Assembly: GCF_024706985.1 (NCBI RefSeq)
Contig: NZ_JAMCCX010000017.1
Location: forward strand, 248,001-312,000
Source: Alicyclobacillus sp. SP_1
GTDB taxonomy: Bacteria; Bacillota; Bacilli; Alicyclobacillales; Alicyclobacillaceae
Length of the DNA stretch: 64,000 nt
Direction of reading: 5' to 3'
The notes below the pieces were generated by a model. The model did no database searches. It was not told the origin of the DNA and saw only the letters and a list, made by a program, of their open reading frames with translations. The translations under genes and the position numbers were made by a program. Within the stretch, counting starts at the first letter, position 1. Each line of letters opens with the position of its first letter. Below, in pieces: positions 493 through 20,761 of the stretch.

Positions 493-520
493 ACGCGGCA
501 GAACGTGCCATCATACTATA
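493..520 (+). promoter_or_regulatory. Sigma-K-type promoter of gerE
   Basis: CATACTATA at 512-520 fits the sigma-K -10 consensus CATANNNTA exactly. An AC dinucleotide at 493-494, 17 bases upstream, fits the loose sigma-K -35 (AC). The start of gerE is 54 bases downstream. In Bacillus subtilis gerE is transcribed by mother-cell sigma-K, so the match is to the expected factor. Confidence 0.6.
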
Positions 521-573: not shown

Positions 574-747
574 ATGTCACCGGGTAATGACTTACATTCG
601 AAGTCACTATTGACGAACCGAGAGCGGGAAGTATTTGAATTGCTTGTGCAGGACAAAACGACCAAGGACATTGCGTCCCAATTGTTTGTCAGTGAGAAGA
701 CTGTTCGAAATCACATCTCTAATGTCATGTTGCCAGTGGTGGAGTGA
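574..747 (+). CDS. gerE: gerE, 5' portion of an interrupted gene (spore coat regulator)
   Basis: GerE is a small LuxR/FixJ-type helix-turn-helix protein, the last mother-cell transcription regulator, acting on coat genes after sigma-K. The frame reads MSPGNDLHSKSLLTNRERE, VFELLVQDKTTKDIASQL, FVSEKTVRNHISNVM. This matches B. subtilis GerE almost residue for residue as far as HISN(V/A)M, then runs into LPVVE and a stop. The missing part is the last helix (KKLNVKGRSQAVVELVRLGEL), which is present intact at 29945-30025. GGGAGGG at 558-564 supports the ATG at 574. Real gerE sequence ends at the CTAATGT word (719-725); bases 726-747 belong to the inserted element. The unexcised product would lack the C-terminal helix and is probably inactive. 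Confidence 0.9.
   Translation: MSPGNDLHSKSLLTNREREVFELLVQDKTTKDIASQLFVSEKTVRNHISNVMLPVVE
719..742 (+). other. Left attachment junction (attL) of the gerE element
   Basis: The core CTAATGT is at 719-725. To its right, inside the element, come CAT, GTTGC and CAGTGGTGG (734-742). Left of the core is gerE (ATCACATCT). In a circularised element this half-site would face the right-end half-site CCACTACTG-AACCG-ATGA at 29925-29942, forming an imperfect inverted repeat centred on TAAT. Confidence 0.75.
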
Positions 748-800
748 GCTGTTAGTCGCCACGAATAGACACTCTTCGACAAGTTGGGCCGGAGTGGGTG

Positions 801-828
801 TTGTGACGTATTACAGTCATGTTACAAT
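801..828 (+). promoter_or_regulatory. Sigma-A-like promoter of the penicillin-binding protein gene
   Basis: TTGTGA at 801-806 and TACAAT at 823-828 are separated by 16 bases. They sit about 100 bases upstream of the ATG at 927 and inside the element, about 75 bases from its left edge. Confidence 0.55.
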
Positions 829-926
829 GAGTGGCATAGCAGGTAAGCTTGGTGACGTTTGTCCTGAGCGCAGGGAACATTGGCCGCGTGCCGATGCATC
901 TGCATTGAGGGAGGTCAACAGATACC

Positions 927-3641
927 ATGCGGTTGGTATTAAGTTGGAAAAGGTTTGTTTTGACGATTGTCTTTGTTTTTGTCGCTATTGTGCTCCTAGT
1001 GGTGGGTGGGTCGTTACTGTTGGTTCGGTTTATGCCGTTTAAGCGACCACAGTTAGCTGCCATCGAGCAGCCCACCGAAGTATACGACCGATTCGGCAAG
1101 CCGTATCTCACGTTATCCAGTCAGAGAATGCCGAATTTGACGTACGCGCAAATTCCTAAAGTTCTTCAAAATGCGATTGTCTCCACTGAGGACCATAGTT
1201 TTTGGACCAGCAGTAGCATCGACGTCAAAGGCATTTTACGCTCCGCCGTCGTAGACATGACCACAGACAGTTATGCCGAAGGCGGAAGCACCATTCAAGA
1301 GCAGTTGGCGAAAATCTTGTATCTCACCGATAAAAAGACCTTGATTCGAAAGTTGAAACAAGTCCTTCTTGGGGTGGATTTAAGCCGCTACTATACCAAG
1401 CAAGAAATTCTAGCCATGTATGTCAACCATGTTTTTATGGGCGAGAATGCGGTTGGAATGAATGCAGCGGCATGGCGCTACTTTGGAATTAATTTGGCGA
1501 AAGACCCAAAGGCGTTGACGTTGGATGATGCGGCTCTGTTGGCGGGAATGCTGCAAGCCCCAAGCGGCTACAATCCACTCTTGCATCCAAAGGCAGCTTT
1601 GGCACGTCGCAACACGGTACTTGAAAACATGGTACGGTACGGCGGCCTGAGTCCCAAAGTAGCTGCGAAAGCGGCCAAACAGCCCATCCATGCCTCGTAC
1701 CATTCTCTTCCGGGAGACCCATGGACCGAGCATCCTCTATTTACCAACTTCTTATTCAGTTACGCCGCGAAGCAAGGTATCTCGGAAGCAGAATTGCTGC
1801 AAGGCGGGTTGAAAATTTACACGAGTATCAATCCAACAGTGCAACACGCGTTTCACATCGTCTTTTGGAGCACCAATTACGACCACTTGTGGCCGGGTCC
1901 GACGAAAGGGATTGTGCCAGAAGGTGGCGCTGTTGTGCTCGACCCCAAGACCGGGGGAGTTCTTGGCGCAGCAGGGTCGCGTAAGCAAGGATTCGTTCGC
2001 CTCGGGCTTGACCGAGTGTATTCCTATAGTCTACCGGGATCGACCATTAAACCCGTGATGGATTATGGCCCCGCTATTCAGACCGGTAAATGGGGACCGA
2101 CGTCCATTCTCGATGACCAGCCGCAGAATTTTGACGGAGACTATGACCCGCAAAACTGGAATTACAACGCTCCTCACTATGCCACCTTGCAGTATGGGCT
2201 GGAGGATTCCCAGAATGTGGCTTCGGTCTGGCTGTTGAATGCTATTGGCATTAAGACGGGTGCGGACTTTGCTATGCGCGATGGCATTCATTTGACGACG
2301 GCGGATCAACATCATCTGTCGATTGCCATTGGCGGAATTCAACACGGTGTGAATCCCTGGCAGATGGCGCGTGCCTATGAACCGTTTGACAACGGTGGGG
2401 TGCAGATGGCACCGCACCTGATTGATTCCATTGTCAACGACCGTGGTCAGGTCATCTATCAATTTCAGCGTTCGGCTAAAACCATCATGAGCCCGAGCAC
2501 TGCTCGGACGATGACGAGTTTGTTACAAGACGATGTGGATTATGGCATCGACGGAGTGATTGGCGTAAAGGGCTGGGGCACCGCCGGTAAGTCGGGGACA
2601 CAGCAGTATTCTTCCGTGGGCCATTCCACTTGGGTGAGTGACGGCTGGTTTTGCGGGTATTTGCCGAATATGGTTGGTGCGGCCTATGTGGGCTACGATA
2701 ATTCGGACGCTGCGCATCACTTGCTGTGGAACGCGACGCACGTAGATCCAGCCTGGAATGCTGGCATGATTTTGCATGAGGTCTTTAAGTTGTCGACGGA
2801 GCATATGCAGCCGGAGCACTTTGCGCAAGGGCCATTTCCGGAAAGCCAGGGAGAGCGGCTGGCGGCTTATCATTTGCCCACGCCGATTGCCCATCCGATG
2901 GCGGTATGGAGTTCTGCGACGAATGGTGTCGAGTTGTCTTGGACGTCGAAGTCTACCGTTCCAGTGGATTTTGTGGTGACGAGGAAGACGTTATTTTCAG
3001 GGACGACCTCGATTGCCCAAAACGTTCCGAGTAGTACTAGCACGGGCGGAGTGAGCAGCACAACTGGAGCGAGCAGCACGACAAGTTCCAATGCCACTGG
3101 TGCAGGAAACGGGTCGACTTCTTCGAGCGGATCGGCAAGTGCTGCTTCGCCTTCCAATGGGTCGGCGGCGCAATCTGGGGCGACGGTTCGATTAGGAAAG
3201 ACGGCGAAGACGTCGTTCTTCAACGCTGATGTGAGCGAGAATGGAGCATACGTCTATACCATCCAAGCCGTTGGCCCGGATACAGGATTCCCAATTGGGC
3301 CGGCGGTCACTGTGACTTATGGTGAGAGCAACATCCAGCCAGCGACGACGGGTCCGGGAACAGGAGCGGGAGCTACGGGAACGGAGCCTCCGGGCGGACC
3401 GGGACAGAATCCGACGAGCGGCGGAGCAGGTGGTACACAGAGCGCACCGGGTGCAACGAATCCTGCGAGTGGAGCCAATGGGTCCGGGGGCAGTAACGGA
3501 TCGACCAGCACGGGCGCACCCGCATCGACTCCGCCGAATCGTGGGAACGGCGCGCCACCCAGTTCTCCGCCGGCGACCGCGGGAGGAGCAAAAGGACCGG
3601 GCAATGCTGGCACAGGCACACTTCAGCCGTCTACTACCTAA
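927..3641 (+). CDS. Class A penicillin-binding protein (bifunctional peptidoglycan synthase)
   Basis: This enzyme polymerises lipid II and crosslinks peptidoglycan outside the membrane. Residues 8-35 form the single N-terminal membrane anchor. The GT51 glycosyltransferase domain shows EDHSFW (catalytic Glu 88) and GGSTIQEQLAK (from 119). The transpeptidase domain shows S372-T-I-K, S428-Q-N and K555-S-G-T. A fibronectin-like segment follows, interrupted and ended by long Gly/Ser/Thr/Pro/Ala-rich stretches (about 695-760 and 810-904) that probably form a flexible extracellular tail. GGGAGG about 12 bases upstream supports the start. It is the first cargo gene at the left end of the gerE element, and its 3' end overlaps the convergent recombinase gene by eight bases. 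Sporulating Bacillota carry several such paralogues, so a specific symbol is not assigned. Confidence 0.92.
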   Translation: MRLVLSWKRFVLTIVFVFVAIVLLVVGGSLLLVRFMPFKRPQLAAIEQPTEVYDRFGKPYLTLSSQRMPNLTYAQIPKVLQNAIVSTEDHSFWTSSSIDVKGILRSAVVDMTTDSYAEGGSTIQEQLAKILYLTDKKTLIRKLKQVLLGVDLSRYYTKQEILAMYVNHVFMGENAVGMNAAAWRYFGINLAKDPKALTLDDAALLAGMLQAPSGYNPLLHPKAALARRNTVLENMVRYGGLSPKVAAKAAKQPIHASYHSLPGDPWTEHPLFTNFLFSYAAKQGISEAELLQGGLKIYTSINPTVQHAFHIVFWSTNYDHLWPGPTKGIVPEGGAVVLDPKTGGVLGAAGSRKQGFVRLGLDRVYSYSLPGSTIKPVMDYGPAIQTGKWGPTSILDDQPQNFDGDYDPQNWNYNAPHYATLQYGLEDSQNVASVWLLNAIGIKTGADFAMRDGIHLTTADQHHLSIAIGGIQHGVNPWQMARAYEPFDNGGVQMAPHLIDSIVNDRGQVIYQFQRSAKTIMSPSTARTMTSLLQDDVDYGIDGVIGVKGWGTAGKSGTQQYSSVGHSTWVSDGWFCGYLPNMVGAAYVGYDNSDAAHHLLWNATHVDPAWNAGMILHEVFKLSTEHMQPEHFAQGPFPESQGERLAAYHLPTPIAHPMAVWSSATNGVELSWTSKSTVPVDFVVTRKTLFSGTTSIAQNVPSSTSTGGVSSTTGASSTTSSNATGAGNGSTSSSGSASAASPSNGSAAQSGATVRLGKTAKTSFFNADVSENGAYVYTIQAVGPDTGFPIGPAVTVTYGESNIQPATTGPGTGAGATGTEPPGGPGQNPTSGGAGGTQSAPGATNPASGANGSGGSNGSTSTGAPASTPPNRGNGAPPSSPPATAGGAKGPGNAGTGTLQPSTT

Positions 3642-5271
3642 CGGCAGGATGGTTCGCTCGCCATGTCCAGAGAACGTCGACGTTGGCGCCATGGTCGACC
3701 CAGAGGGCCGCGACGAATACATCGAGGAACCGTCGCTGACTTACCACAGTGTATTCGTGGAGATGGTCGGCCAGAGTAATGACCCTAGAGACGACTGTCT
3801 CTAGGGCTTTGTTTTGCTCGGCCTCAACGGCTGCCGTTTTGTCGATATCCTCGGTGGACAGGCGCTTCATTTCGGCACGCAAGTATGCCTCGGCCCGCCG
3901 CAACTCAGCTTGGCTGTTTTCGATGACAGCGGGCGAAAACAGACCCTGCTGCATCGCTTCTAGGTTGTTGCGCTGAGCCTTCAAGTTCCTTGCCAACTCT
4001 TGTTCCAGGGTGTAAAGACGCCGATTGGCAGCCTCTGCTCCGCTTGTGCCGGAGATGGCGCCACGCTCGGTTGCCTGTAAAAGAACGCTCACCAACGGGG
4101 CAATTTCATTCGCACAGGACAGCAATTGCGCTTGCAGTTGCTGCAAAACGGCGCCAATCACGTCCTCGTATCTCAACTTCGCGTGATTTTCACAAGCTTT
4201 TGGACCAAGACGTCGTACTCGAGAACAAACGATGTAGCGATAGGTCCGCGATTTTCGGGGACGACTGCTGACAATGACCATCTTGCTTTGGCATTCGCGG
4301 CAGTAGAGTTTGCCAGCCAACAGATTCGAGGTTTGTTTCAGCCCCTTGTTTTGGGATTTGTCGTCCATTAAAGACTGGACCGCTGAAAACAGCGGTAAGT
4401 CGACAATCGACGGATGTGCGTGTTCGACGGAAATCCATTCATCTTCGTCGCGGGTCTGCAAGCGCGTAATACGACTGTCCGCTTGTCTCGATTGCGTAAC
4501 ATCGGGCAGACTCGTGTAACGATGAGCGACAATCGTTCCGATGTAGACCGGATTGCGCAGCATGTTGCGGACAGTAGACGCCTGCCAGAGCGTCTCGCGG
4601 CGCGCAGCCAAGACGCTCGCCGTCGGCACGTGGCGGTCGTTTAAAATGCGGGCAATGGCCTGGCAGCCAAGACCCGACTGATACATTTGGAAAATGTCTA
4701 CGACAATCGGTGCCGTCATGGGGTCGAGACGCAAGCGTCCGTCTGATCCCTTTGCATAGCCAAAAGGGGCAATGTTACCCGTGTGCCGCCCACGCTTAGC
4801 GGATTGACGCAGCCCGCGCTGAATGGCTTTCGACATCTCTTGGCTCTTGTGCGCGGCGAGCATGGCATGAACGGTAAAGACCATTTCCGAGTTCCTGCCG
4901 TCGATGGCTGAGTCGTATCCTTCTTCAATGCTGACCATGCGAATGCCGTAGACGGTTTCGAGTCGCTTCTTCATCTGTAAGGCGTCACTTAAGTCGCGGC
5001 TAAATCGAGAAATTGCGACGAATAACACCACATCGAACCGGCCGCACCGGGCGTCGTGGAGAAGACGCTGGACCTCTCTGCGCTGCTCCATCTCCGTACC
5101 GGAGACGCCCGCATCGTTGTAGATAAACTCGGACGAGACGGTCATGTCATGTTCTTGTGCATATTCTTTGCAGGTCGCAATTTGATTGTCAGGAGAGTCT
5201 TTTTGGGCGTCACTGTCGGTCGACACGCGTACGTAGATGGCGGCTCGCTGACCCGGCGTGGAGAATGGCAT
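3634..5271 (-). CDS. Large serine recombinase, probable excisionase/integrase of the gerE element
   Basis: This 545-residue protein has the resolvase catalytic domain at the N-terminus: YVRVST (nucleophile Ser 17), then ISRFSRD. A recombinase domain follows (GNIAPFGYAKGSD ... GLGCQAIARILN), then a zinc ribbon (CRECQSKM ... C-x-RVRRLGPKAC) and a coiled-coil-rich C-terminus (about 400-510). The size and architecture are those of phage-type large serine integrases and of SpoIVCA, which excises skin from sigK. It is the only recombinase seen in the insert, so it is the obvious candidate to join attL and attR and rebuild gerE. The start lies seven bases after the stop of a 57-codon ORF with no strong ribosome site of its own, which suggests translational coupling. 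No mother-cell promoter was recognised with confidence. Confidence 0.92.
   Translation of the reverse strand: MPFSTPGQRAAIYVRVSTDSDAQKDSPDNQIATCKEYAQEHDMTVSSEFIYNDAGVSGTEMEQRREVQRLLHDARCGRFDVVLFVAISRFSRDLSDALQMKKRLETVYGIRMVSIEEGYDSAIDGRNSEMVFTVHAMLAAHKSQEMSKAIQRGLRQSAKRGRHTGNIAPFGYAKGSDGRLRLDPMTAPIVVDIFQMYQSGLGCQAIARILNDRHVPTASVLAARRETLWQASTVRNMLRNPVYIGTIVAHRYTSLPDVTQSRQADSRITRLQTRDEDEWISVEHAHPSIVDLPLFSAVQSLMDDKSQNKGLKQTSNLLAGKLYCRECQSKMVIVSSRPRKSRTYRYIVCSRVRRLGPKACENHAKLRYEDVIGAVLQQLQAQLLSCANEIAPLVSVLLQATERGAISGTSGAEAANRRLYTLEQELARNLKAQRNNLEAMQQGLFSPAVIENSQAELRRAEAYLRAEMKRLSTEDIDKTAAVEAEQNKALETVVSRVITLADHLHEYTVVSQRRFLDVFVAALWVDHGANVDVLWTWRANHPAVR
3783..3816 (+). terminator. Rho-independent-like terminator for the PBP gene, inside the antisense recombinase gene
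   Basis: CCCTAGAGAC (3783-3792), loop GACT and GTCTCTAGGG (3797-3806) make a perfect 10-bp hairpin followed by CTTTGTTTTG on the plus strand. It lies 142 bases past the PBP stop and within the recombinase coding region on the other strand. Confidence 0.6.
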
Positions 5272-5278
5272 GAGGCCG

Positions 5279-5452
5279 TCACCAGTCCGATTCGTTGCGG
5301 TCGACGTCGAGTATGAGATGGCACAGTTGCGACAAGACCTCCTGCCATGACGTTCCGTCGATCCGATGCCAATAGGTGATGGTCTGGCCGCTCGGCAAGC
5401 GCAACTGCTCTGTCGGCGTCCATTCTGCGGTCCACGATGTGCGCTCTAGCAT
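5279..5452 (-). CDS. Small 57-residue protein upstream of the recombinase; candidate directionality factor
   Basis: The minus-strand ORF starts at 5452 and reads MLERTSWTAEWTPTEQL, RLPSGQTITYWHRIDG, TSWQEVLSQLCHLIL, DVDRNESDW. A GGGGGGTG ribosome site lies nine bases upstream. The stop is seven bases before the recombinase ATG, so both are on one transcript. No family is recognised. The size and the linkage to a large serine recombinase recall SprB, the 58-residue factor that turns SprA toward excision in SPbeta, but there is no sequence evidence for that function. The ORF is tryptophan-rich and soluble. Confidence 0.7.
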   Translation of the reverse strand: MLERTSWTAEWTPTEQLRLPSGQTITYWHRIDGTSWQEVLSQLCHLILDVDRNESDW

Positions 5453-5464
5453 CTCGGTTACACC

Positions 5465-5496
5465 CCCCAGTCACTTCAATACATATGCGACTGGGG
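5465..5496 (-). promoter_or_regulatory. Inverted repeat overlapping the ribosome site of the small recombinase-linked ORF
   Basis: On the minus strand CCCCAGTC (5496-5489) pairs with GACTGGGG (5472-5465) across a 16-base loop that contains CATATGTATT. The 3' arm merges with the GGGGGGTG ribosome site, so the hairpin could hide it. There is no U-tract, so it does not look like a good terminator for mscS. The loop CATATGTATT is only a weak match to mother-cell sigma factor -10 boxes. Confidence 0.45.
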
Positions 5497-5504
5497 CTCG
5501 TCTG

Positions 5505-6389
5505 TCATTCTTTCGATTCTGATGGGGCTTCCTGCATCCAGATTTGCCGTTGAAACGGAACGGAGAGATTTTTTTCAGCGAATCGCTTCTGTAGCTTTTG
5601 ATAGGCGAGTCGCTCTGCGGAAAATTGATTGTAAGGCTTACATTGCAGCGTGGCTTTGACGGTATACGTCGAACTATTCAATTGGTTGACGCCGAGAATT
5701 TGAATATCGCCGATAGCATTTGGATCCTCTTGACGAACTTCCTGCAGCACCTCTTGGACAATGCCGAGGGCTTCTTTTGCGTCCGTGTCGTAACCGATGT
5801 CAAATTGCACGACCGCCAAATTGGTGTCTTTCGAGTAATTGGTCACTTGGAGGATGGTTCCGTTCGGAATGTAAACAATCTCTCCCGTCCAGACTTGGAT
5901 AGACGTCATGCGCAGACCCACCGCAATGACTTTACCTGTGACATTGTTCGCGCCCGACATATTGTCCACCATAACCCAATCGCCAATGCCATATTGGTCC
6001 TCAAAGAGAATGAAAATACCAGCAAAGAAGTCTTTGATAAGCGTCTGGGCACCAAAGCCAATGGCCAAACCAGCCACTCCGGCGCCAGCAATCAGTGCGG
6101 CGATGTTGACTCCAAACAAAGGAAGGATTGTGAGTAGAATGATGAAGTAGAGCGTGTACTTTAAAATGTTGCTGAACAGCGATTGCAGCGTCTGGCGTCG
6201 CCGGTCGTCCAATCGAGCTTGCAGGCGCAAAAAGTGGTGAATCATCCGTGTGCCAATCTTTAAGAACAATAATGCGGCGATGTAGATGAGAATGGCTAAG
6301 ATGATATGCCAGCCAATTTTCTCGAGCGTGGTCGCCTCGCGATTCGCGAGTTGCTGTAAATACACTCCAAAGTGATGCATCTGGGACAT
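5505..6389 (-). CDS. MscS-family mechanosensitive channel
   Basis: The 294-residue protein is predicted to open under membrane tension and release solutes on hypo-osmotic shock. Three membrane segments are visible (about 23-45, 70-92, 95-117). The third is the pore helix AALIAGAGVAGLAIGFGAQ, with the Gly/Ala packing typical of MscS. The beta domain follows (GIGDWVMVD ... GKVIAVGLRMTSI ... GEIVYIPNG). The short N-terminus resembles YkuT-type channels. GAGGAGG seven bases upstream supports the start. It is element cargo, divergent from the cox genes. An osmotic role fits with the kdp potassium genes in the same element. Confidence 0.93.
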   Translation of the reverse strand: MSQMHHFGVYLQQLANREATTLEKIGWHIILAILIYIAALLFLKIGTRMIHHFLRLQARLDDRRRQTLQSLFSNILKYTLYFIILLTILPLFGVNIAALIAGAGVAGLAIGFGAQTLIKDFFAGIFILFEDQYGIGDWVMVDNMSGANNVTGKVIAVGLRMTSIQVWTGEIVYIPNGTILQVTNYSKDTNLAVVQFDIGYDTDAKEALGIVQEVLQEVRQEDPNAIGDIQILGVNQLNSSTYTVKATLQCKPYNQFSAERLAYQKLQKRFAEKNLSVPFQRQIWMQEAPSESKE

Positions 6390-6573
6390 CCTCCTCTATG
6401 ACTCCTGTTCCAATACCGTACCATGGACGCCAGAAAGCAATCAAATGGGCGTACTCTCTCCAAATTCTGTGGAAAGCGTTATACTGATGAAGACGACGCG
6501 ACATCAGTCTGTGTCCTCTGAATTATTGAAAGATTTGGTTGACTTTCGGGAAGGCAGATGGAGGGGGACGCGT

Positions 6574-7026
6574 ATGCAGATATCGGGTTCGAAACACTTT
6601 CCGACGACGCCACAAAAGACGTATGCACTCTTGACCAACCGGGAGGTATTGATGCGCGCCATGCCCGGACTCAAGTCGCTGGAACCGAAGTCGGAGAGTT
6701 ATTACAACGCCGAGTTGGAAATTGGCGTCGCCGGCATTAAGGGCCGCTACAAAGGATATCTTGAATTGCAGGACGTTCGTCCAGGCGAAGGTTACAAGAT
6801 GGTCCTTCACGGTGAAGGGCCGATGGGTTTCATGGATTCCACCGTTCTTGTCTCGCTGGAACCAGCGAGTGATGGTGAAGGAACAGAATTGACTTACAGT
6901 GGCGAAGCAAAAGTCGGTGGAACCGTCGCGGGTGTAGGTCAGCGCATGCTCTCGGGCGTCGCGAAATTAATCATTGGGCAATTCTTCAACGGACTGCAAA
7001 AGGAAGCGAAGGCTGGTGGTGCGTAA
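6574..7026 (+). CDS. coxG: CoxG-like SRPBCC protein
   Basis: The 150-residue protein (MQISGSKHFPTTPQKTYALL ... MRAMPGLKSL ... GPMGFMDSTV ... TELTYSGEAKVGGTVAGVG) matches the CoxG/YndB family of small START-like proteins found with CO dehydrogenase-type molybdenum hydroxylases. CoxG has been linked to membrane attachment of CO dehydrogenase. The C-terminus has a hydrophobic stretch (LSGVAKLIIGQFF). The ATG at 6574 follows GGAGGGGG by seven bases, so an in-frame upstream ATG at 6445 is not needed. It is the first gene of the molybdenum hydroxylase block and its end overlaps the next gene. Confidence 0.85.
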   Translation: MQISGSKHFPTTPQKTYALLTNREVLMRAMPGLKSLEPKSESYYNAELEIGVAGIKGRYKGYLELQDVRPGEGYKMVLHGEGPMGFMDSTVLVSLEPASDGEGTELTYSGEAKVGGTVAGVGQRMLSGVAKLIIGQFFNGLQKEAKAGGA

Positions 7027-7879
7027 GCCGGGCGGATCGGACGTTGGTGTCGCGGTGGATTGGTATGGTCAATTGACGAAGGCGGGTTATGAGGCAGAGC
7101 CGGAATTGGTTCAGATGCTGGAGGTAAGCCAGCATCTACATCGTCCTCTGTTGCTCGAAGGCCCAGCCGGAGTTGGGAAGACTGCTTTGGCCGCGGCGCT
7201 CGCCACAGTGCTGCACAGACCCATGATTCGCCTCCAGTGCTATGAAGGACTGGAGGCATCGCAGGCACTCTACGACTGGAATTACCATCGGCAAATGGCC
7301 GCCTTGACTCGGCATTCGGACGAAGATGTGTTCACTCGCCCGTATTTGCTGTCACGGCCGTTGCTTCAGGCGTTGGAATGTCCTCAGGGTGCGGTCTTGT
7401 TACTGGATGAGGTTGACCGGGCGGACGAATCGTTTGAAGCACTCTTGCTCGAATTTCTGTCTGACTTTCACGTCACCATTCCCGAACTCGGAACGCTCTC
7501 TGCCAAGGTCGATCCGGTCGTTCTCCTCACCTCGAATCGCACCCGGCCGCTCAGTGATGCGTTGCGCCGCAGGTGTCTCTATCATTTTTTCGATTGGCCG
7601 AGCAAAGAGCGGGAGTGCGCTATCGTCCAGTTGCATTTCCCCGAGCTGTCCGACGTTATGTGCGGTCAGTTTGTGTCCGCCGTGCAGTTCTTGCGCTCTT
7701 TGAACCTCGTCAAAATTCCCGGAATGGCCGAGACGTTGGACTGGGTGGCGGCGTTTTTGTGTGGCGACCAAGAGTGGACGGTTGCTTGGATTGCGGGTAC
7801 GCTCGGATGCGTGTTGAAAGACCCGCTCGATTTAGCCAAGGTGCGGCCGCGACTCGAAGAGTTGTGGACGGCTACCTGA
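7019..7879 (+). CDS. MoxR-family AAA+ ATPase (CoxD-like), copy 1
   Basis: MoxR/CoxD ATPases work with VWA proteins (CoxE) in maturing the active site of CO dehydrogenase-type enzymes. Walker A is GPAGVGKT and Walker B is LLLDEVD; the sensor segment is VVLLTSNRTR. The GTG at 7019 overlaps the coxG stop by eight bases and follows AAAGGAAG, which makes it the likely start (286 residues). An in-frame ATG at 6974 lies deep inside coxG. The closest relative in the window is the frameshifted copy at 16342, which shares RLQCYEG, the WNY motif and FLSDF/VLSDF. The following coxE-like frame is in the same reading frame after the stop. Confidence 0.88.
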   Translation: MRKPGGSDVGVAVDWYGQLTKAGYEAEPELVQMLEVSQHLHRPLLLEGPAGVGKTALAAALATVLHRPMIRLQCYEGLEASQALYDWNYHRQMAALTRHSDEDVFTRPYLLSRPLLQALECPQGAVLLLDEVDRADESFEALLLEFLSDFHVTIPELGTLSAKVDPVVLLTSNRTRPLSDALRRRCLYHFFDWPSKERECAIVQLHFPELSDVMCGQFVSAVQFLRSLNLVKIPGMAETLDWVAAFLCGDQEWTVAWIAGTLGCVLKDPLDLAKVRPRLEELWTAT

Positions 7880-8002
7880 AGGTCCGTCGAAAGAGGAGAT
7901 GCCGCATCTGACAAACTGCGGGCGCCGAATACTTTCAGCGAACTCGGCAGGACGTCCAATTCAGAGGTCGATCCGTTCACGCACGTCGACCAACCGATCG
8001 CT

Positions 8003-8743
8003 GTGCGGGCGAGCCTAGCGGCGGGGGGCGAACTGTCCCATGGGATGTTTCTGATGCCGAACGAACGCTGGCACGACTTGCCGCCGCGCTTGCCGTTTTT
8101 GCGTACCGTTTACGGTCGGCCAGCTATCGTCGACGTCCGGGCCGCTTTCTTCGATGTTCGCCGTACGGTCAGGTTGTGGATGCGAACAGGACGCCTAGGA
8201 TGGCAGTGCGAACCGCAGACGCGACCGAAAGTGTGGGAGAGGCTCGTAGTGTTCTGGGATGTGTCGGGATCGATGAAAACATTTCTCGAGGATTATGGGC
8301 AACTCTGGTCCCGCCTGGCGTTGACGCACCCGCGCATGGGAATTTTCGCGGTGGGTACGGAGATGAAAGACGTCACGGCGACCTTTCGTGCCAACCAGGG
8401 TGGTCACCTGTACGAGCACTTGCGCCGTTTCAAGACGCTTTGGGAAGGCGGGACTAACCTCGGCGCCGTGCTCACGCAGTGGCTAGACGAGTATGGGGAT
8501 GTGTGGCTTCGAGGCAGTGTCGCCGTGTTGCTCGTCAGTGACGGTTGGGACCGGGGCAGCGAAGTCGAGTTGGAAACCGCGTTGGTGGCACTGGTGCGCC
8601 GCAGGGCGCGCCTCTACTGGCTCAATCCTTGGCAAGACAGCCTCGGCTTTGAGCCGCGAACACGGGCGCTGCAGGTGGCGCAGCCGTACTTGTCTGGCAT
8701 GGCCTCTGGACTCAGCGTGGCGAGCCTAATCTCTCTAAGCTAG
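8003..8743 (+). CDS. VWA-domain protein (CoxE-like), N-terminally shortened copy
   Basis: The frame carries a von Willebrand A domain with MIDAS motif DVSGSM, GGTNLG and VSDGWDRG, the partner of MoxR in CO dehydrogenase-type enzyme maturation. It has about 246 residues, against 413 in the second copy at 17291, and lacks most of the conserved N-terminal half. The reading frame is open back to the moxR stop at 7877, but no ATG, GTG or TTG with a ribosome site occurs there. The GTG at 8003 has no convincing ribosome site either. The start is therefore uncertain, and the gene may be a remnant after a deletion between moxR and coxE. Confidence 0.65.
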   Translation: MRASLAAGGELSHGMFLMPNERWHDLPPRLPFLRTVYGRPAIVDVRAAFFDVRRTVRLWMRTGRLGWQCEPQTRPKVWERLVVFWDVSGSMKTFLEDYGQLWSRLALTHPRMGIFAVGTEMKDVTATFRANQGGHLYEHLRRFKTLWEGGTNLGAVLTQWLDEYGDVWLRGSVAVLLVSDGWDRGSEVELETALVALVRRRARLYWLNPWQDSLGFEPRTRALQVAQPYLSGMASGLSVASLISLS

Positions 8744-8792
8744 TCACCGAAACGACGTGCCAGTCGATTTAACTTCAGCAAGTGAGGAAAGG

Positions 8793-9623
8793 ATGGGACG
8801 GTTGAAACCGAATTCTTTTGCTTACTATCGACCGAACTCGGTGGCGAGTGCGCTGCAGTGCTTGGCGACACAACCGGACGCGAAAATTCTGGCCGGAGGG
8901 CAAAGTCTTGTGCCAGCCATGAATTTTCGCCTCAGTCGCCCGGCCTGTCTGATTGATATTAATGGGATTGAGGCATTAGCTCATGTAGAAGTGTGCGCAG
9001 ACAAAGTAGTCCTTGGCGCACTCGTGCACCATCAACAAATCCACGAACATCCGTCCATCCGTCAGCACTTTCCGGTGCTTGCCGAGGCCGCAGGGGAAAT
9101 TGGGCACTTGGCGATTCGCAATCGCGGTACCCTCGGTGGTTCCTTGGTTCATGCCGATCCCGCTTCTGAACTTCCGGCCGCCATGGTCGCGCTGCGCGCG
9201 GTGATGGAGGTGGCTGGAGTCGACGGGACGCGCAGGATACCGGCCGCCGAATTCTTTGTGGGCTGGATGACGACGGCACTCGATACGGGGGAGATGCTCG
9301 TCTCCGTCCACGTGCCACTGTCCTCGTCCAGTGTCTACGGATTTGCCGAATTTGCGCGCAGACCTGGCGATTTTGCCTACGTCGGCGCATTTGTCGAACG
9401 CGCTGCCAACGAGTCGGGCGCTGTCACCTGGTTTGGTGTGTCCGATAAACCGGAGTATCGACCGATGTCCGCGTTACCGCGCGACGCAGCCGCTCGTCAA
9501 GCCGAGTGGCAACAGCTCGCCGCCAAGTTAGAGGTTCTGGATGAACCACGGATGCGTCGGAAGTTGGCGGTCGTTTTGGCCGAGCGCGCCTATCAGAAAG
9601 TGGAGGAGGCGAAGATTGGATGA
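8793..9623 (+). CDS. Molybdenum hydroxylase FAD-binding subunit (CoxM-like), copy 1
   Basis: This is the medium, flavin-binding subunit that passes electrons from the iron-sulfur subunit to an acceptor. The FAD motifs are AGGQSLVPAMNFRL (family AGGHSL-P-M--R) and TLGGSLVHADPASELP (family TIGG-hADPA-D-P). The start is either ATG 8793 (GAGGAAA five bases upstream) or TTG 8802, which gives the family-typical opening MKPNSFAYYRP. Length is about 277 residues. It overlaps the small-subunit gene by four bases (ATGA). The subunit order here is M-S-L. Confidence 0.9.
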   Translation: MGRLKPNSFAYYRPNSVASALQCLATQPDAKILAGGQSLVPAMNFRLSRPACLIDINGIEALAHVEVCADKVVLGALVHHQQIHEHPSIRQHFPVLAEAAGEIGHLAIRNRGTLGGSLVHADPASELPAAMVALRAVMEVAGVDGTRRIPAAEFFVGWMTTALDTGEMLVSVHVPLSSSSVYGFAEFARRPGDFAYVGAFVERAANESGAVTWFGVSDKPEYRPMSALPRDAAARQAEWQQLAAKLEVLDEPRMRRKLAVVLAERAYQKVEEAKIG

Positions 9624-10114
9624 GTGACGCGGTGATATCGGCCAGCGGAAGGACTCCAGTGCGGATGGAAGTCAACGGGGTGGCCGAGACGGTCTATGTG
9701 GAACCACGTTGGTTGCTGTCGGATGTGTTGCGCCACCAGCTCGGGCTCACGGGCACTCATGTGGGCTGTGAGCAAGGCGTCTGCGGCGTATGCACGGTCT
9801 TGCTCGACGGCGTGCTGGTTCGCAGTTGTCTCCTGTTTGCGGTGCAAGTGGATGGGCATCGCGTCACCACGATTGAAGGTGTGACCCCAGACGAGGGCCT
9901 CAGTCCGATACAAGCGTCCTTTCAACGTCATCACGGACTGCAGTGCGGGTTTTGCACACCCGCGATGGTGCTGACTGCAGAAGCACTCTTGCGGACCCAT
10001 CCTAATCCCAGCGAGGCGGACATTCGCGATGCGTTTTCCGGAAATATCTGCCGTTGCACGGGTTATCAATTCATTGTGGACGCCATTCGAGGATGCAGCG
10101 AGGAGGAGCGATGA
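9620..10114 (+). CDS. Molybdenum hydroxylase [2Fe-2S] subunit (CoxS-like), copy 1
   Basis: This 164-residue protein carries two [2Fe-2S] clusters. The N-terminal plant-ferredoxin-type cluster uses C50, C55, C58 and C70 (GCEQGVCGVC ... RSC). The C-terminal helical cluster uses C109, C112, C144 and C146 (QCGFCTP ... ICRCTGY). It relays electrons from the molybdenum site to the flavin subunit. Start and stop both overlap neighbours by four bases, consistent with a tightly coupled M-S-L operon. Confidence 0.94.
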   Translation: MSDAVISASGRTPVRMEVNGVAETVYVEPRWLLSDVLRHQLGLTGTHVGCEQGVCGVCTVLLDGVLVRSCLLFAVQVDGHRVTTIEGVTPDEGLSPIQASFQRHHGLQCGFCTPAMVLTAEALLRTHPNPSEADIRDAFSGNICRCTGYQFIVDAIRGCSEEER

Positions 10115-12480
10115 CGGTGCGCTTTGAACAGTCCAAACCACAATTCACCGGAGCGCGAGTCGAACGCGCGGAAGATGCGCGCCTCTTGACGGGCCGCGCC
10201 CGTTATTTGGACGATCTCGATTTTCCCGGCACACTCGAAGTGGCTTTTGTGCGGTCGACGCACGCGGCGGCTAAGCTGGTGTCGGTCCATGCCGAAGCGG
10301 CTTCGCGGATGCCCGGCGTGCGTATGGTATGGACCGCAGCGGACATCCATGTCACACTCGATAGTCCCGAGTTTGGGGTGAACCAACCCGTACTCGCGAA
10401 GGACGAGGTGCGCTACGTTGGCGAGCCCGTGGTCGCCATCTTTGCCGACTCTCGCTATGCTGCAGAGGATGCGGCGGATACCGTCGAAGTGACGTATGCA
10501 GATTTGCCTCCGGTTTTACATATTCGCGAAGCTTTGCAGGCAGAGACGCGGCGCGTCCATGCAGAGAGACCGAATGTCATGTATCACCAAGAGTATCAGA
10601 CGGATGGATTTGAGGAGGCGTTTGGAAACGCTTTGCACCATCTGTCGGCGACGTTCACACTGCATCGCCAAACCGCGGTTCCGATGGAGACGCGTGGCTG
10701 CATGGCTGCTCCGGACGGCGCAACAAATCGGCTTCATGTCTACGTTTCCCACCAGTCTCCGCATGGATTTCGCGCGGATTTGTGCAAGTTTCTCGGCGTT
10801 CCGGAACATGCGGTGCGGGTCATTGTGCCGGAAGTCGGCGGGGCGTTCGGCATCAAAGCGATGTTTTATCCGGAGTACGTCGTCGTGGCCTTGGCCGCGC
10901 TGCGGTTGCGGCGCCCTGTTAAGTGGATTGCCGACCGCAGCGAGTGTCTATTGGCCGATTGTCACGCGCGAGACGGCATTCACGATGTCGACGTCGCTTT
11001 TGACGGGGATGGGCGCATTCTCGCCCTTCGCGACCATCTGATGGGGGACAGTGGCGCATATCCGGCCGTGCCGTTCTGTGGCTCCATCGGAGAGACGAGT
11101 TTGGCCGCACGGATGCTGACAGGCCCCTACAAAATACCCCATCTCTCGTTCACCATTGACTGCACGTATTCCAACAAGGCGCCGCTTGGTGCATATCGAG
11201 GCGTTTGGGGTCCGCCCGCATCGTTTGTCCAGGAGGGCGTGGTGGACCGCGTGGCGCGCGCCCTGCACAAAGACCCGGTCGCTGTGCGGCGCATCAACTT
11301 GCTACAGCCGGAAGACTTTCCGTATCGAACGGCTTCTGGATTTGTGTACGATCCGGGTTCTTACGCCGAGTCCCTAGAGACTGCTTTGGAATTAGTGGAC
11401 TATGATGGTTTTCGCAAGCGGCAGCGGGAAGACCGGTCACGAGGCGTCTACCGGGGGATTGGCATTTCTGTCTTCGTAGAGCCGACGGCGATGGCTGCGT
11501 CTGAGGCGGGTGATATTCCATATGAAGCGGCGACCGTGCGCATGGAACCGACCGGAACCGTGACGGCAGCGCTCGGACTAGGCCCGAGCGGGCAAGGCCA
11601 CGAAACCACGATGGCCCAGTTGATTGCGGATGAATTGGGCGTGGACGTGCGAGACGTTGTCGTGTTGCATGGTGACACGGACAGTGCTCCCTATGGGGGT
11701 GGGACGGGCGGAAGTCGCTCGGGAACCATTGGTGGCGGAGCAGCGTTGACGGCAGGGCGCAAGTTGCGCGACAAGTTGCTTGCATTGGCGGCACACCTGT
11801 TGGAGGCGGACGTCGCGGACATCGAGTTGAAAGACGGGGCCGCGCACGTGGCGGGTGTGCCTGCCCAGCGCTTGACCGTTCAGCAACTGGCAACAGCAGC
11901 GTATACGGATGTCAATCGGCTGCCAGAAGGTATGAAACCAGGGCTTGAAGTGATGGCTCGTTACCAGCCAACCAGGCCTATCACGTTTTCGAACGGAACG
12001 CATATTGCGGTTGTCGACGTGGACGTGGCGACGGGGCAGATACAGACCGTGGACTATGTTGTGGCCAATGACTGCGGGGTGCTTATCAATCCGACCATCG
12101 TCGAAGGACAGATTCACGGAGGTGTGGCCCAAGGTATTGGCGAAGCGTTGCTTGAAGAATTGAAATACGACACTGAGGGACAACTGACGACGGTCTCACT
12201 GTCCGACTATCTGCTGCCGACAACGCACGACATTCCGAACATTCGCATTCGCCACCTGGTAACGCCGTCGGAGAGCAAAGGCGGGTTTAAAGGAATGGGT
12301 GAAGGTTCGCTGATTGCTGCACCCGCAGCAGTCGTGGCGGCAGTCTCGGATGCGCTTGAACCGTTTGGCGTGATGGTGTCGTCAATGCCTGTCACACCTG
12401 ACCAAGTGCTCGAATGGATTGACGCGGACCAAGAGAAAAAAGTGGATTCGGTTGACTCCAAAGTATATTTTGAGAATTGA
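10111..12480 (+). CDS. Molybdenum hydroxylase large subunit (CoxL/XdhB-like), copy 1 with AYRGVWG loop
   Basis: The 789-residue subunit binds the molybdopterin cofactor and substrate. Seen are PEVGGAFGIK, GAYRGVWGP (residues 361-367), GPSGQGHETT and KGMGEGSLIAAP, with the presumed catalytic Glu 731. Bona fide form I CO dehydrogenase has AYXCSFR at the loop, and form II has AYRGAGR. This copy has neither, so CO as substrate is not supported and another aromatic or heterocyclic hydroxylation is as likely. The ATG at 10111 follows GAGGAGGAG and overlaps coxS. It forms one enzyme with the preceding M and S subunits. Confidence 0.9.
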   Translation: MTVRFEQSKPQFTGARVERAEDARLLTGRARYLDDLDFPGTLEVAFVRSTHAAAKLVSVHAEAASRMPGVRMVWTAADIHVTLDSPEFGVNQPVLAKDEVRYVGEPVVAIFADSRYAAEDAADTVEVTYADLPPVLHIREALQAETRRVHAERPNVMYHQEYQTDGFEEAFGNALHHLSATFTLHRQTAVPMETRGCMAAPDGATNRLHVYVSHQSPHGFRADLCKFLGVPEHAVRVIVPEVGGAFGIKAMFYPEYVVVALAALRLRRPVKWIADRSECLLADCHARDGIHDVDVAFDGDGRILALRDHLMGDSGAYPAVPFCGSIGETSLAARMLTGPYKIPHLSFTIDCTYSNKAPLGAYRGVWGPPASFVQEGVVDRVARALHKDPVAVRRINLLQPEDFPYRTASGFVYDPGSYAESLETALELVDYDGFRKRQREDRSRGVYRGIGISVFVEPTAMAASEAGDIPYEAATVRMEPTGTVTAALGLGPSGQGHETTMAQLIADELGVDVRDVVVLHGDTDSAPYGGGTGGSRSGTIGGGAALTAGRKLRDKLLALAAHLLEADVADIELKDGAAHVAGVPAQRLTVQQLATAAYTDVNRLPEGMKPGLEVMARYQPTRPITFSNGTHIAVVDVDVATGQIQTVDYVVANDCGVLINPTIVEGQIHGGVAQGIGEALLEELKYDTEGQLTTVSLSDYLLPTTHDIPNIRIRHLVTPSESKGGFKGMGEGSLIAAPAAVVAAVSDALEPFGVMVSSMPVTPDQVLEWIDADQEKKVDSVDSKVYFEN

Positions 12481-12545
12481 GATTTTTTCATAGGAGGGGT
12501 AGACTGAAAGCGCATTCACACAGACACGTGCTGGAGGTGTAAGTA

Positions 12546-13082
12546 GTGGCGGGAAAGGCACTGAAACGGATGGTGAAGCTCGACGTCAACGGAACTTGTT
12601 ACGAACGAGAATTAGAGCCGCGCGACCTTTTGGTTCACGTACTCCGCGACGAACTGGGGTTGACGGGAACGCACATTGGCTGCGATACCAGCCAGTGTGG
12701 GGCGTGTACGGTGTTGGTCGATGGAGAGGCAGTGAAATCTTGTACGATGCTCGCGGTACAGGCTGAAGGGTGTTCGGTTACAACGGTGGAAGGTCTTGGG
12801 AAAATGGGTGCCCTCCACCCCATCCAAGAAGGGTTTTGGGAAGAGCACGGGTTGCAGTGCGGATTTTGCACCCCGGGAGTCATGATGGCAGCCGTTGGTC
12901 TGTTGGCGCAGTACCGAGAGCCCACGGAAGAGCAAATTCGTGAGGGGCTCGAAGGGGTTATGTGTCGATGCACGGGTTATCAAAATATCGTTCGGGCGGT
13001 CGCTAACGCAGCGGAACGCATCAAAGCCACAGAAAGTGCGGAGATTCAGGCAGCAGTGGCGCACGTCGGGGAGAGGAGCTAG
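12546..13082 (+). CDS. Molybdenum hydroxylase [2Fe-2S] subunit (CoxS-like), copy 2
   Basis: The 178-residue protein has the two cluster sites C46, C51, C54, C66 and C105, C108, C140, C142 (GCDTSQCGAC; QCGFCTPG; MCRCTGY). The GTG at 12546 follows GGAGGTG by about seven bases. It opens the second enzyme set, 65 bases after the first large-subunit gene, with order S-L-M instead of M-S-L. The C-terminus (after about 155) is longer than in copy 1. Confidence 0.94.
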   Translation: MAGKALKRMVKLDVNGTCYERELEPRDLLVHVLRDELGLTGTHIGCDTSQCGACTVLVDGEAVKSCTMLAVQAEGCSVTTVEGLGKMGALHPIQEGFWEEHGLQCGFCTPGVMMAAVGLLAQYREPTEEQIREGLEGVMCRCTGYQNIVRAVANAAERIKATESAEIQAAVAHVGERS

Positions 13083-13086
13083 GGCG

Positions 13087-15435
13087 ATGGCGACGGTACT
13101 CGGACAGAGGCTACGGCGCAAAGAAGACCCGCGTCTCATCACGGGCAAAGGCCAATATACGGACGATGTCCAATTGCCTGGATTGGTCTATGCTTCCATT
13201 TTACGAAGTCCGCACGCCCACGCCCGCATTCTCCGCGTGGATGCCTCCCTTGCGAGAGAGATGGATGGTGTGTTGGCCGTCTATACTGGCGAAGATTTGG
13301 AAGGCAAACTAGGGACCATTCCAACCGCATGGTTGCCACCGGATTCGGACATTCGGACGGTACCGCATTCCGCCCTCGCCGTCCATCGCGTCCGCTATGT
13401 CGGAGATGGAGTCGCTTTGGTCGTGGCGAGCAGCCGGTCCATTGCTGAGGACGCGCTCGACGTTATTTCGGTGGACTACGAGGTGTTGCCAGGCACAGCC
13501 GACCAAGAAATCGCCATGAAGCCGGATGCAGCCCAGCTTCATGAAGACGCGCCTGGCAATGTCGCTTTTCACTGGCAGGTTGGCCATGCGCCGGACGATG
13601 TCTTCGCTCATGCAGAGGTTACAGTGCGCCAGCGCATTCGCCAGCAGCGTCTGATTCCGAATCCCATGGAGCCGCGTTCGGCTGTCGCACAGTACAACGA
13701 GAGTACGGGTGACATGACCATCTGGGCGACTTCTCAAAATCCACACATTCACCGCTTCTTGCTGTCGGGCATTCTCGGCATTCCCGAACATAAAGTACGG
13801 ATTGTGGCGATTGACGTGGGTGGAGGTTTCGGTGCGAAGATTGCGTGCTATCCTGACGAGGCTTTGGTCGCTTTTGCGGCTCGCGAGCTGGGTCGTCCCG
13901 TCAAATGGACCGAAAGCCGGCGCGAGCACTTTTTGGTGACGACGCACGGGCGGGATCACATCGAAGATATTGAACTGGCAGGCAATCGCGATGGAACGTT
14001 GGTGGGGATTCGCGTCAAAGTGCTCGCTAATATGGGGGCGTATCTGTCCACCGCAGCACCGGGGGTACCAACCATTCTCTTTGCGTTGATTCTGCCCGGG
14101 CCGTACACCATTCCCTATGCGGCTGCGGACGTCTACGGAGTCTTTACCAACTCCACGCCGACCGACGCGTATCGTGGTGCCGGTCGTCCCGAAGCCACCT
14201 ATTTGTTGGAACGTATGGTGGATCTCTTTGCTCGTGAAATTGGGATGGACCCGGTCGAGGTGAGGCGGAAGAATCTCATTCCTCGGCACCAATTTCCATA
14301 TCATAACGCGATGGGACTCGAGTATGACAGCGGCAACTACCACTTGGCACTGGACAAAGCACTCGAGATGGCTGGCTATGAAGAGTTCCGACGGGAGCAG
14401 TCGCGACTACGTGAAGAAGGCAAACTCGTTGGTATTGGCTGCACCACCTATGTGGAGATTTGTGGGCTCGGCCCGTCTCAAGTGGCAGGTGCGGTCGGTT
14501 TTCAAGGAGGGCTGTGGGAAAGTAGTCAAGTGCGGGTGCATCCGACTGGGAAAGTGACGGTCTTTACCGGATCGTCCCCGCATGGACAAGGAGAGGAAAC
14601 CACCTTTGCCCAAATTGTTGCGGACCGACTGCATATACCGATGGCGGACGTAGAAATCGTCCATGGGGATACGGACCGCATCTCGATGGGGTGGGGGACT
14701 TACGGTTCTCGCTCTACACCCGTCGGCGGCAGTGCGCTCGCGGTGGCCACGGAGCGAGTGGTCGAAAAGGCGAAGAAAATAGCCGCGCACATGCTCGAAA
14801 TCGGCGAGTCCGATGTGGAGTTCGACGAAGGGCGCTTTCACGCTAAAGGGGCACCGGGGCGAAGTGTCAGCTTTCAAGACGTCACACTGCAAGCCTACCT
14901 CGCCTGGAACTTACCTGCGGGCGTGGAACCCGCGTTAGAAGGGCGCGCTTTTTACGATCCGGTCAATTTCACCTACTCTTTCGGCACGCACCTGGCTTTG
15001 GTGGAAGTGGACAAAGACACGGGAGAGGTAGAACTTAAGCGCTACATCGCAGTGGATGACTGCGGCCGTGTGCTCAACCCCCTGATTGCCGAAGGACAGG
15101 TGCACGGAGGTATTGTCCAAGGCGTGGGCCAGGCGCTCTATGAGGGAGCTATCTACGATGAAGATGGACAGCTGATGACCGGAACTTTCATGGACTATGC
15201 CATGCCCAAGGCGAGGTTTTTCCCAACTTTTGAAACGGCCTTTACGGAGACACCATCGCCTCACAATCCGCTCGGTGTCAAGGGGATTGGTGAAACGGGA
15301 ACTATCGCGTCCACTCCTACGGTGGTCAATGCGGTCATGGATGCATTGCAACCGTTCGGTGTTCGCGACATTCCCATGCCGCTGACGCCAGAGCGAGTTT
15401 GGGGTGCCATGCAGAAGGGAGGAATGGAAGCGTGA
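13087..15435 (+). CDS. coxL: Molybdenum hydroxylase large subunit, form II CoxL type (AYRGAGR)
   Basis: The 782-residue molybdopterin subunit shows DVGGGFGAK, DAYRGAGRPE (AYRGAGR at residues 361-367), SSPHGQGEETT and GVKGIGETGTIAS with presumed catalytic Glu 736. AYRGAGR defines form II (OMP/BMS) CoxL proteins. Members of this group are often annotated as CO dehydrogenase, but most have no proven CO activity. ATG 13087 follows GAGAGGAG; copy 2 coxS ends four bases before it. It should assemble with the S subunit before and the M subunit after it. Confidence 0.92.
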   Translation: MATVLGQRLRRKEDPRLITGKGQYTDDVQLPGLVYASILRSPHAHARILRVDASLAREMDGVLAVYTGEDLEGKLGTIPTAWLPPDSDIRTVPHSALAVHRVRYVGDGVALVVASSRSIAEDALDVISVDYEVLPGTADQEIAMKPDAAQLHEDAPGNVAFHWQVGHAPDDVFAHAEVTVRQRIRQQRLIPNPMEPRSAVAQYNESTGDMTIWATSQNPHIHRFLLSGILGIPEHKVRIVAIDVGGGFGAKIACYPDEALVAFAARELGRPVKWTESRREHFLVTTHGRDHIEDIELAGNRDGTLVGIRVKVLANMGAYLSTAAPGVPTILFALILPGPYTIPYAAADVYGVFTNSTPTDAYRGAGRPEATYLLERMVDLFAREIGMDPVEVRRKNLIPRHQFPYHNAMGLEYDSGNYHLALDKALEMAGYEEFRREQSRLREEGKLVGIGCTTYVEICGLGPSQVAGAVGFQGGLWESSQVRVHPTGKVTVFTGSSPHGQGEETTFAQIVADRLHIPMADVEIVHGDTDRISMGWGTYGSRSTPVGGSALAVATERVVEKAKKIAAHMLEIGESDVEFDEGRFHAKGAPGRSVSFQDVTLQAYLAWNLPAGVEPALEGRAFYDPVNFTYSFGTHLALVEVDKDTGEVELKRYIAVDDCGRVLNPLIAEGQVHGGIVQGVGQALYEGAIYDEDGQLMTGTFMDYAMPKARFFPTFETAFTETPSPHNPLGVKGIGETGTIASTPTVVNAVMDALQPFGVRDIPMPLTPERVWGAMQKGGMEA

Positions 15436-16295
15436 TTCCCAGTGCATTCGACTACCGCCGTGCTTCCAGTGTGGAAGAGGCACTCTCGTTGTTGCAGTCT
15501 ACAGAGGACGCCAAATTTGTCGCTGGTGGACACAGTTTATTGCCACTTATGAAGATGCGCTTCGCCAGTCCGGGAATGTTGATTGACATCCGTTCTATCC
15601 AGGAGTTGCAGTCGATTCGCCGCGACGGCAACCGAGTCGTGATTGGTGCGCTCTGCACGCATCGTCACATTGCGAACGACGAGACTATCGTACAGGCACT
15701 TCCCGCGCTGGCAGAGGCAGCTGGTCGTGTTGGTGACCTCCAGGTGCGAAATCGGGGCACGATTGGCGGCAATCTCGCGCATGCCGATCCCGCTTCCGAC
15801 TTGCCCGCTCTCGCTCTGCTCTACGGTGCCACGATTCATGCTGAGGGGCCGGACGGTCCGGAAGATTATCCGGTCGAGGAGTTCTTCTTGGGACCGATGA
15901 CGACTGCGCTACGACCAACTCAGTTGTTGCGTTCCGTGTCTTTTCCTGTCCCGGACAGGGGATCGGAAGTATACGAAAAATTCGCTCATCCAGCGTCTGG
16001 ATATGCGGTGGTCGGAGTGGCGGCGTGGGTCGCGACGGATGCAGGAGGCATCATTCAAGACATTCGTGTCGCGTTGAACGGCGTGGGCTATTGCGCCTAT
16101 CGGGCGACTTCGGTAGAGCAGGCTCTTTTTGGCCGCGAAGCGACGGAAGAGCTCTTAGAGAAAGCGTCTCATTTGGCTACGGAAGAGGTTGAGGTACTGG
16201 AAGATGTATTTGCGTCCGAGAACTATCGGCGCCACGTAGCCGCGGTGTTCACCAGGCGTGCTATCCGTCGAGCCCTGGATAAGGCAACTCGGTAG
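15432..16295 (+). CDS. Molybdenum hydroxylase FAD-binding subunit (CoxM-like), copy 2
   Basis: The protein reads MIPSAFDYRRASSVEEALSL, then AGGHSLLPLMKMRFASP and TIGGNLAHADPASDLPA, the two canonical FAD-contact motifs of CoxM. The GTG at 15432 overlaps the coxL stop by four bases and follows GGGAGG; this gives 287 residues. It completes the S-L-M set. The next gene, moxR, starts 46 bases later. Confidence 0.93.
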   Translation: MIPSAFDYRRASSVEEALSLLQSTEDAKFVAGGHSLLPLMKMRFASPGMLIDIRSIQELQSIRRDGNRVVIGALCTHRHIANDETIVQALPALAEAAGRVGDLQVRNRGTIGGNLAHADPASDLPALALLYGATIHAEGPDGPEDYPVEEFFLGPMTTALRPTQLLRSVSFPVPDRGSEVYEKFAHPASGYAVVGVAAWVATDAGGIIQDIRVALNGVGYCAYRATSVEQALFGREATEELLEKASHLATEEVEVLEDVFASENYRRHVAAVFTRRAIRRALDKATR

Positions 16296-16341
16296 ACGCG
16301 ACCGGCGGCGCTCGCGTACTGGCGAGGAAGGGGGAACTTTC

Positions 16342-18532: not shown

Positions 18533-18604
18533 GGCAGAAGTTCTTGGTCGCTCTCCTTCTCAGGGACGTCCGTCGTGAATATCGGGGATTGCGAGGTGAG
18601 TCTC

Positions 18605-20313: not shown

Positions 20314-20330
20314 CATGGAAGCAGAACTGG

Positions 20331-20666: not shown

Positions 20667-20761
20667 GCCTCGTTGTTTACCGTATGTTTTGGTTTGGGTG
20701 TGACAAACGTCGCGCTAGGTAGGTCCTCTGTGTTTCTAATCACTTTCGGGAGGTATGTCGT

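Follow-up and report, generated by a model that had tools for sequence, protein, structure and literature searches.

In Bacillus cereus, the gin element is excised from gerE by GirC and GirX, the latter a protein of 42 amino acids (Abe 2017, PMC5595907). As described there, GirC alone suffices for integration, which GirX blocks, and the GirC crossover is predicted at the AA of an Asn codon (PMC5595907). Skr is the 64-amino-acid recombination directionality factor (RDF) of skin, encoded directly upstream of spoIVCA (PMC6957869). The RDF of prophage SPbeta is SprB, with 58 amino acids (PMC4191935), and that of the Clostridioides difficile skin element is CD1234, with 72 (PMC5025042); an RDF has also been predicted in a yabG element (PMC10747680). 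Serine-integrase RDFs are hard to find because they have little sequence in common.

The gene gerE is a sporulation regulator gene, and in the window, by which we mean the whole 64,000-nucleotide stretch of DNA analysed here, it is split by a large element (Table 1). The initial annotation had proposed that a small ORF gives an adjacent recombinase directional control. That idea gains support, and the element splitting gerE, which the annotation did not mention, supplies its setting: the recombinase lies inside this element, which explains the ORF beside it.

Table 1. Features of the split gerE locus (positions are those of the window).
Feature	Positions	Strand	Basis
gerE promoter AC-N17-CATACTATA	493..520	+	sequence match
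gerE 5' half to crossover AA (721-722); the frame continues in the element up to a stop at 747	574..722	+	
attL region; crossover dinucleotide AA at 721-722	699..744	+	
gerE-intervening element, 29,224 bp	721..29944	.	gerE halves, att comparison, Pfam scan
Large serine recombinase, 545 aa; Resolvase, Recombinase and zinc-ribbon domains	3634..5271	-	Pfam, NCBIfam and PHROGs scans
57-aa ORF, candidate RDF	5279..5452	-	sequence, conservation, profiles, substitution pattern
Shine-Dalgarno GGGGGGTG of the 57-aa ORF	5461..5468	-	8 nt before ATG, read from sequence
Inverted repeat; 3' arm holds most of the Shine-Dalgarno, loop region holds the CATA box	5465..5496	-	RNA folding prediction
Site AC-N16-CATATGTAT ahead of the ORF, resembling a mother-cell-type promoter; match weak in the window	5479..5505	-	
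attR region; crossover dinucleotide AA at 29945-29946	29923..29968	+	
gerE 3' half	29945..30025	+	

When the two halves of the window gerE are joined by script, they give an in-frame GerE of 75 amino acids, and those of Alicyclobacillus mengziensis, joined likewise, do so too. The element is skin-like: it splits a sporulation gene whose halves rejoin in frame at a short common core. For the att comparison, both ends were read in 12 elements, those of G041 lying on two contigs. The AA formed by the first two bases of the Asn49 codon is the sole dinucleotide within six bases that is identical at both ends in all 12. The reconstructed attP is symmetric about this AA alone, with a mean of 13.3 of 22 positions matched over the 12 elements, versus 6.6 or fewer at twelve other centres. 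As read from these ends, gerE is split at one dinucleotide, and its halves rejoin to GerE. A chromosomal inversion was considered as another source of the split gene and is unlikely, as the cumulative GC skew climbs steadily and the junction is common to the 12 elements.

For elements whose two ends were obtained within a single locus, the lengths are 29,224 (window), 1,978, 4,378, 10,507, 4,138, 10,716, 12,717 and 3,650 bp. Among the cargo of the window element are a PBP1A-like gene and mscS. It also includes a CO-dehydrogenase/xanthine-dehydrogenase-like cluster, in which genes of the CoxE and AAA types occur, and a kdp potassium-transport cluster that comprises two sensors of the KdpD/Usp type together with a kinase and a response regulator. 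Of its 26 ORFs, 20 were scanned in Pfam and yielded no phage genes, and a search of its own genome found no second relative of the recombinase within it at E ≤ 1e-20.

The state of gerE was read row by row in 61 genomes: it is full-length or nearly so in 40, its 5' half is the best match in 14, and 7 have no clear gerE. None of the 36 members of the order among the 40 genomes with a (near) full-length gene has a strong match to the small ORF, which is present in 12 of the 14 with a split one. In the other two, G045 and G058, neither the ORF nor a close recombinase was found; the G045 contig ends 723 bases past the gerE 5' half, and G058 is 60% complete. Arms resembling attP follow the gerE 5' half in both genomes (loci L114 of G045 and L113 of G058). 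Two further genomes have the ORF, G039 with a split gerE and G057 with only the gerE 3' half found.

The recombinase was searched for in 101 genomes, its own and 100 relatives. Besides the window copy there are 13 full-length relatives, with 45-51% identity, and a partial one with 63% identity over 244 amino acids. These close relatives make up 14 loci (L033-L045 and L067), six of them in named records from Alicyclobacillus, Sulfoacidibacillus and a Bacillota MAG. A search of viral contigs gave no match to the recombinase, and tblastn against phages and plasmids gave distant relatives only, with at most 34.8% identity among the matches listed (25 of 552 and 15 of 377 records, respectively). 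When the 57-aa ORF was compared with phages, 25 records were returned, and the 10 matches listed had E values of 1-4.

The initial annotation had described a 57-codon ORF, a ribosome site before it and seven bases between its end and the recombinase start, and each of these is found in the sequence, where the ORF lies on the minus strand. The start codon ATG occupies positions 5452-5450 and the stop codon 5281-5279, the Shine-Dalgarno lies 8 nt ahead of the ATG, and 7 nt (5272-5278) separate the stop from the recombinase ATG. This spacing and the shared strand suggest that the ORF and the recombinase are co-transcribed. The length of the ORF alone is unremarkable because the first 16 kb of the window are overlapped by 142 ORFs of at least 40 amino acids; it is conservation that lifts it above chance. 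A homologous small ORF lies just upstream of the recombinase, on the same strand, in 14 of 14 close relatives. With the window, the ORF thus accompanies all 15 copies, a result opposite to the lack of conservation that, according to the initial annotation, would have told against it.

The family was aligned from 14 sequences, the window and 13 others, leaving out the near-identical L045. Its members share the loose pattern L..G..I.FYC...GPT..E......LA..A..RK; their identity to the window protein is low, at 12-26%. In leave-one-out profiles, where each member was omitted together with its closest partner for three pairs, all 14 ranked first among the frames of their own locus, 13 of them at E ≤ 3.3e-5; L043 is a marginal member (E 0.042). 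With a profile lacking the window sequence, the window ORF came out on top (E 6e-8) among the 1486 stop-to-stop frames of the 64 kb, ahead of a frame with E 1.2. The search for homologues beside serine recombinases that had been called for was carried out in 59 genomes of the order and yielded 19 rows. Fifteen are strong (E ≤ 4.8e-12), come from 14 genomes and all lie beside the recombinase. Since the profile includes 14 of these 15 sequences, the informative part is that there are no other strong matches. The remaining four rows are weak (E 0.005-0.036), lie away from the recombinase and look like chance. The ORF alone as a query returned mostly noise from the genomes, with true relatives beside the recombinase only in the rows of G044 and G053. 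ORF and recombinase identities are correlated (r 0.70; 13 loci, 78 pairs; 0 of 5000 permutations), in a statistic that ignores species relatedness. The MAG JA2.bin28 has two distinct ORF-recombinase pairs (L064 and L067), possibly reflecting a strain mixture.

Nonsynonymous change is below synonymous change (pN < pS) in all 12 pairs of ORFs compared, and each of the four pairs tested for purifying selection was significant (Fisher p 0.0013, 5e-9, 0.0038 and 8e-6). The conserved stretch might instead be an untranslated leader or DNA near the attachment site, as the low identity of members to the window protein would allow and as L037 and L040, which have no obvious ATG with a good ribosome site in the aligned stretch, could indicate. 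The bias at synonymous sites and the protein profiles that match across the family argue in the other direction, and we regard an untranslated stretch as highly improbable. At the level of sequence, then, the ORF is protein-coding, conserved with the recombinase and under purifying selection. It had been said to match no known family, and this holds in Pfam, NCBIfam and PHROGs: the window protein has no family match there, and no family matched more than one of the 14 aligned members at E ≤ 0.5.

We consider it quite probable, from these comparisons, that the ORF encodes the RDF of the adjacent large serine recombinase and that the pair forms the excision module of the element splitting gerE. 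A small protein encoded in the recombinase's own element is one mark of an RDF, and here it is found directly upstream every time. The strongest argument for this role is the smallest element, that of A. mengziensis, whose 1,978 bp are filled by the small ORF and the recombinase. The small ORF has 82 codons if read from its first possible start and 54 with the start chosen for the alignment. The remaining ORFs of at least 30 codons all overlap it or the recombinase, the longest (148 codons) being antisense to the recombinase. The ORF is therefore the only clear candidate for an element-encoded RDF. A different role would be regulation: the small protein could control the expression or stability of the recombinase as an autorepressor, translational coupler or chaperone, the true RDF being a host protein or unneeded. 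The operon-like position directly upstream suits a regulator equally well. However, the 1,978-bp element retains the ORF and is too short for another separate gene; gin, SPbeta and the B. subtilis and C. difficile skin elements, as far as they are described in the papers cited above, each encode a small RDF; and neither a helix-turn-helix nor any other regulator family was detected in the small protein, whether in the window or in the aligned members (Pfam, NCBIfam, PHROGs). A regulator thus seems unlikely to us. The proposal of a candidate RDF draws support from the conservation with the recombinase, the gerE setting and the two-gene element, from which we infer a role in excision.

The 57-aa protein is predicted to fold as a beta-hairpin (residues 11-18 and 24-30) followed by a helix (36-55). 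This arrangement is common to the AlphaFold models of two members of the family, which have pLDDT values of 76.9 and 82.5 and a pTM of about 0.4. A search of PDB sequences with the family profile gave designed proteins, antibody fragments and a GCN4 fusion (best E 0.024), and Foldseek found nothing at E ≤ 0.001 for the models in PDB or BFVD. A partner similar to SprB had been suggested; the small ORF directly upstream fits this suggestion. No sequence relation to SprB was found, hhalign giving probabilities of 0.3% with a single SprB and 0.4% with four SprB sequences. SprB is present in entry 9dxd, the SPbeta integrase-RDF complex (described in PMC12191101). Its chain 9dxd_B matches model 1 weakly (Z 2.4, rmsd 4.6, 53 residues aligned), and is among four entries with Z ≥ 2 when this model is re-aligned to 173 PDB chains; with model 2, to which 59 chains were aligned, it does not appear. 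The predicted structural match to SprB is suggestive only.

CATA is the -10 core of sigma-E and sigma-K promoters. Of the 15 loci, 14 have it ahead of the ORF (6.4 expected), a count attained by none of 200 shuffle sets. Strict sigma-E or sigma-K patterns were found upstream of the ORF in none of the 15 loci, and a looser sigma-K-like pattern in three, including the window (0.46 expected). Across 14 loci, a motif finder returned an 18-nt motif around AAGCC-N6-GCATAC with 240 bits, compared with 174-186 bits in 8 sets of shuffled letters run with fewer restarts. For the window, L041 and L043, this run placed the site elsewhere, and only a 24-nt motif run put the window site on CATA. With a matrix from 11 relatives, the window promoter-like site ranks about 220th in the 64 kb, and the case for a promoter is accordingly weak in the window. 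An AAGCC-like box is conserved about 9 nt before CATA in L033-L040, L042, L044 and L067; to our knowledge, it matches no known promoter element. The window gerE has its own promoter, which we take to match the sigma-K consensus, and the strict form AC-N16/17-CATANNNTA is found in all 28 intact gerE loci that the script could place (30 given). The inverted repeat over the Shine-Dalgarno of the window ORF has a predicted minimum free energy of -26 kcal/mol (z -2.5). Predicted accessibility of the Shine-Dalgarno is 0.01 in RNA reading through from mscS versus 0.67 if the RNA begins downstream of the CATA box. The stem may thus be a translational lock against mscS read-through; among the ten loci tested, such masking is not general.

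The weak promoter match and the large metabolic cargo, with its CO-dehydrogenase-like and kdp clusters, would also suit a fossil, that is, a window element that no longer excises and whose 29-kb cargo has become fixed. Such a state is compatible with an RDF encoded by the ORF. Yet the Resolvase, Recombinase and zinc-ribbon domains are all complete, the ORF is open, both att sites retain the AA core and the window attP is symmetric at 14 of 22 positions. The joined gerE is also intact, and excision confined to the mother cell would leave the lineage its cargo. We therefore think a fossil quite unlikely.

If the ORF does encode the RDF, a model of gerE repair can be proposed, in which we infer the binding to the recombinase, the reversal of direction and the mother-cell timing. 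During vegetative growth, the recombinase alone would only integrate, so that the element stays in place. In the mother cell, a CATA-type (sigma-E/sigma-K-like) promoter would drive the ORF-recombinase operon. The small protein would then bind the recombinase and redirect it towards recombination of attL with attR. The element would leave, and gerE would be rebuilt under its own sigma-K-type promoter, allowing the late coat genes to be expressed. Since the element would be lost only in the terminal mother cell, the spore would keep it.

A wider survey covered 31 more distant recombinase loci, with 30-37% identity. The gerE 3' half lies within the same locus of about 4 kb in 10 of these 31 (gerE context was displayed for 16 of them), which makes gerE look like a recurrent integration target in Bacilli. 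The loci with this 3' half are L046, L136, L139, L140, L143 and L145-L149. A small ORF with a ribosome site lies just upstream of 13 of the 31 distant recombinases, versus 73 of 620 random positions, and several of these ORFs read as a strand followed by a helix. Different small upstream ORFs that read as strand-plus-helix, possibly from other RDF families, are seen at L048, L050, L051, L055, L057, L060, L136-L139 and L141. The chances seem to us evenly balanced that we are dealing with a new RDF family and a new gerE-intervening lineage in the order of the window (Alicyclobacillus, Sulfoacidibacillus and kin), with a self-contained RDF and serine recombinase unit of about 2 kb as its smallest form, and that small strand-helix proteins encoded immediately before large serine recombinases could, more broadly, form a general RDF class in Bacilli that has been overlooked.

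In open PubMed Central papers, we found no description of gerE elements from Alicyclobacillus or its relatives. Developmentally programmed gerE repair, demonstrated before only for B. cereus gin in the open papers, would thus extend to acidophilic spore-formers, and the 1,978-bp element is almost minimal for intervening in gerE. Since 15 recombinase copies each have a candidate RDF at a constant place and both att ends are mapped for 12 elements, the pairing can be directly tested. The ORF-recombinase pairs could also supply new reversible integrase tools.

As far as the published descriptions go, the window element resembles gin of B. cereus ATCC10987 in several ways. In both, gerE is split in its ISN codons, with the crossover AA at the place predicted for gin, the cargo is non-phage and similar in size (28.6 kb in gin), and a small RDF, or a candidate for one, is encoded along with a serine integrase. 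In contrast, GirX, which is compared here by description, has 42 amino acids and was mapped to a deletion interval separate from girC, and where gin has three recombinases (girA, girB and girC), there is one in the 1,978-bp element and no second relative in that of the window. CD1234 is likewise a small, sporulation-controlled RDF of a gene-intervening element, which differs in its 72 amino acids and its target sigK, and which is also set beside the window ORF by description. SprB comes close in size with 58 amino acids, its sequence reads by eye as strand-turn-strand-helix, and it partners a serine integrase during sporulation; its mother-cell promoter has a good -10 and an imperfect -35 (PMC4191935), as may be the case here. 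Unlike the pair in the window, however, sprB and sprA are described at opposite ends of the prophage, the SPbeta target is spsM, and no sequence relation to SprB was detected. In B. subtilis skin, the target is sigK and skr overlaps spoIVCA by 101 nt, and Skr too is compared by description; but the Skr gene is directly upstream of the SpoIVCA gene, behind a mother-cell (sigma-E) promoter. Skr is thus a closer precedent for the window ORF than SprB.
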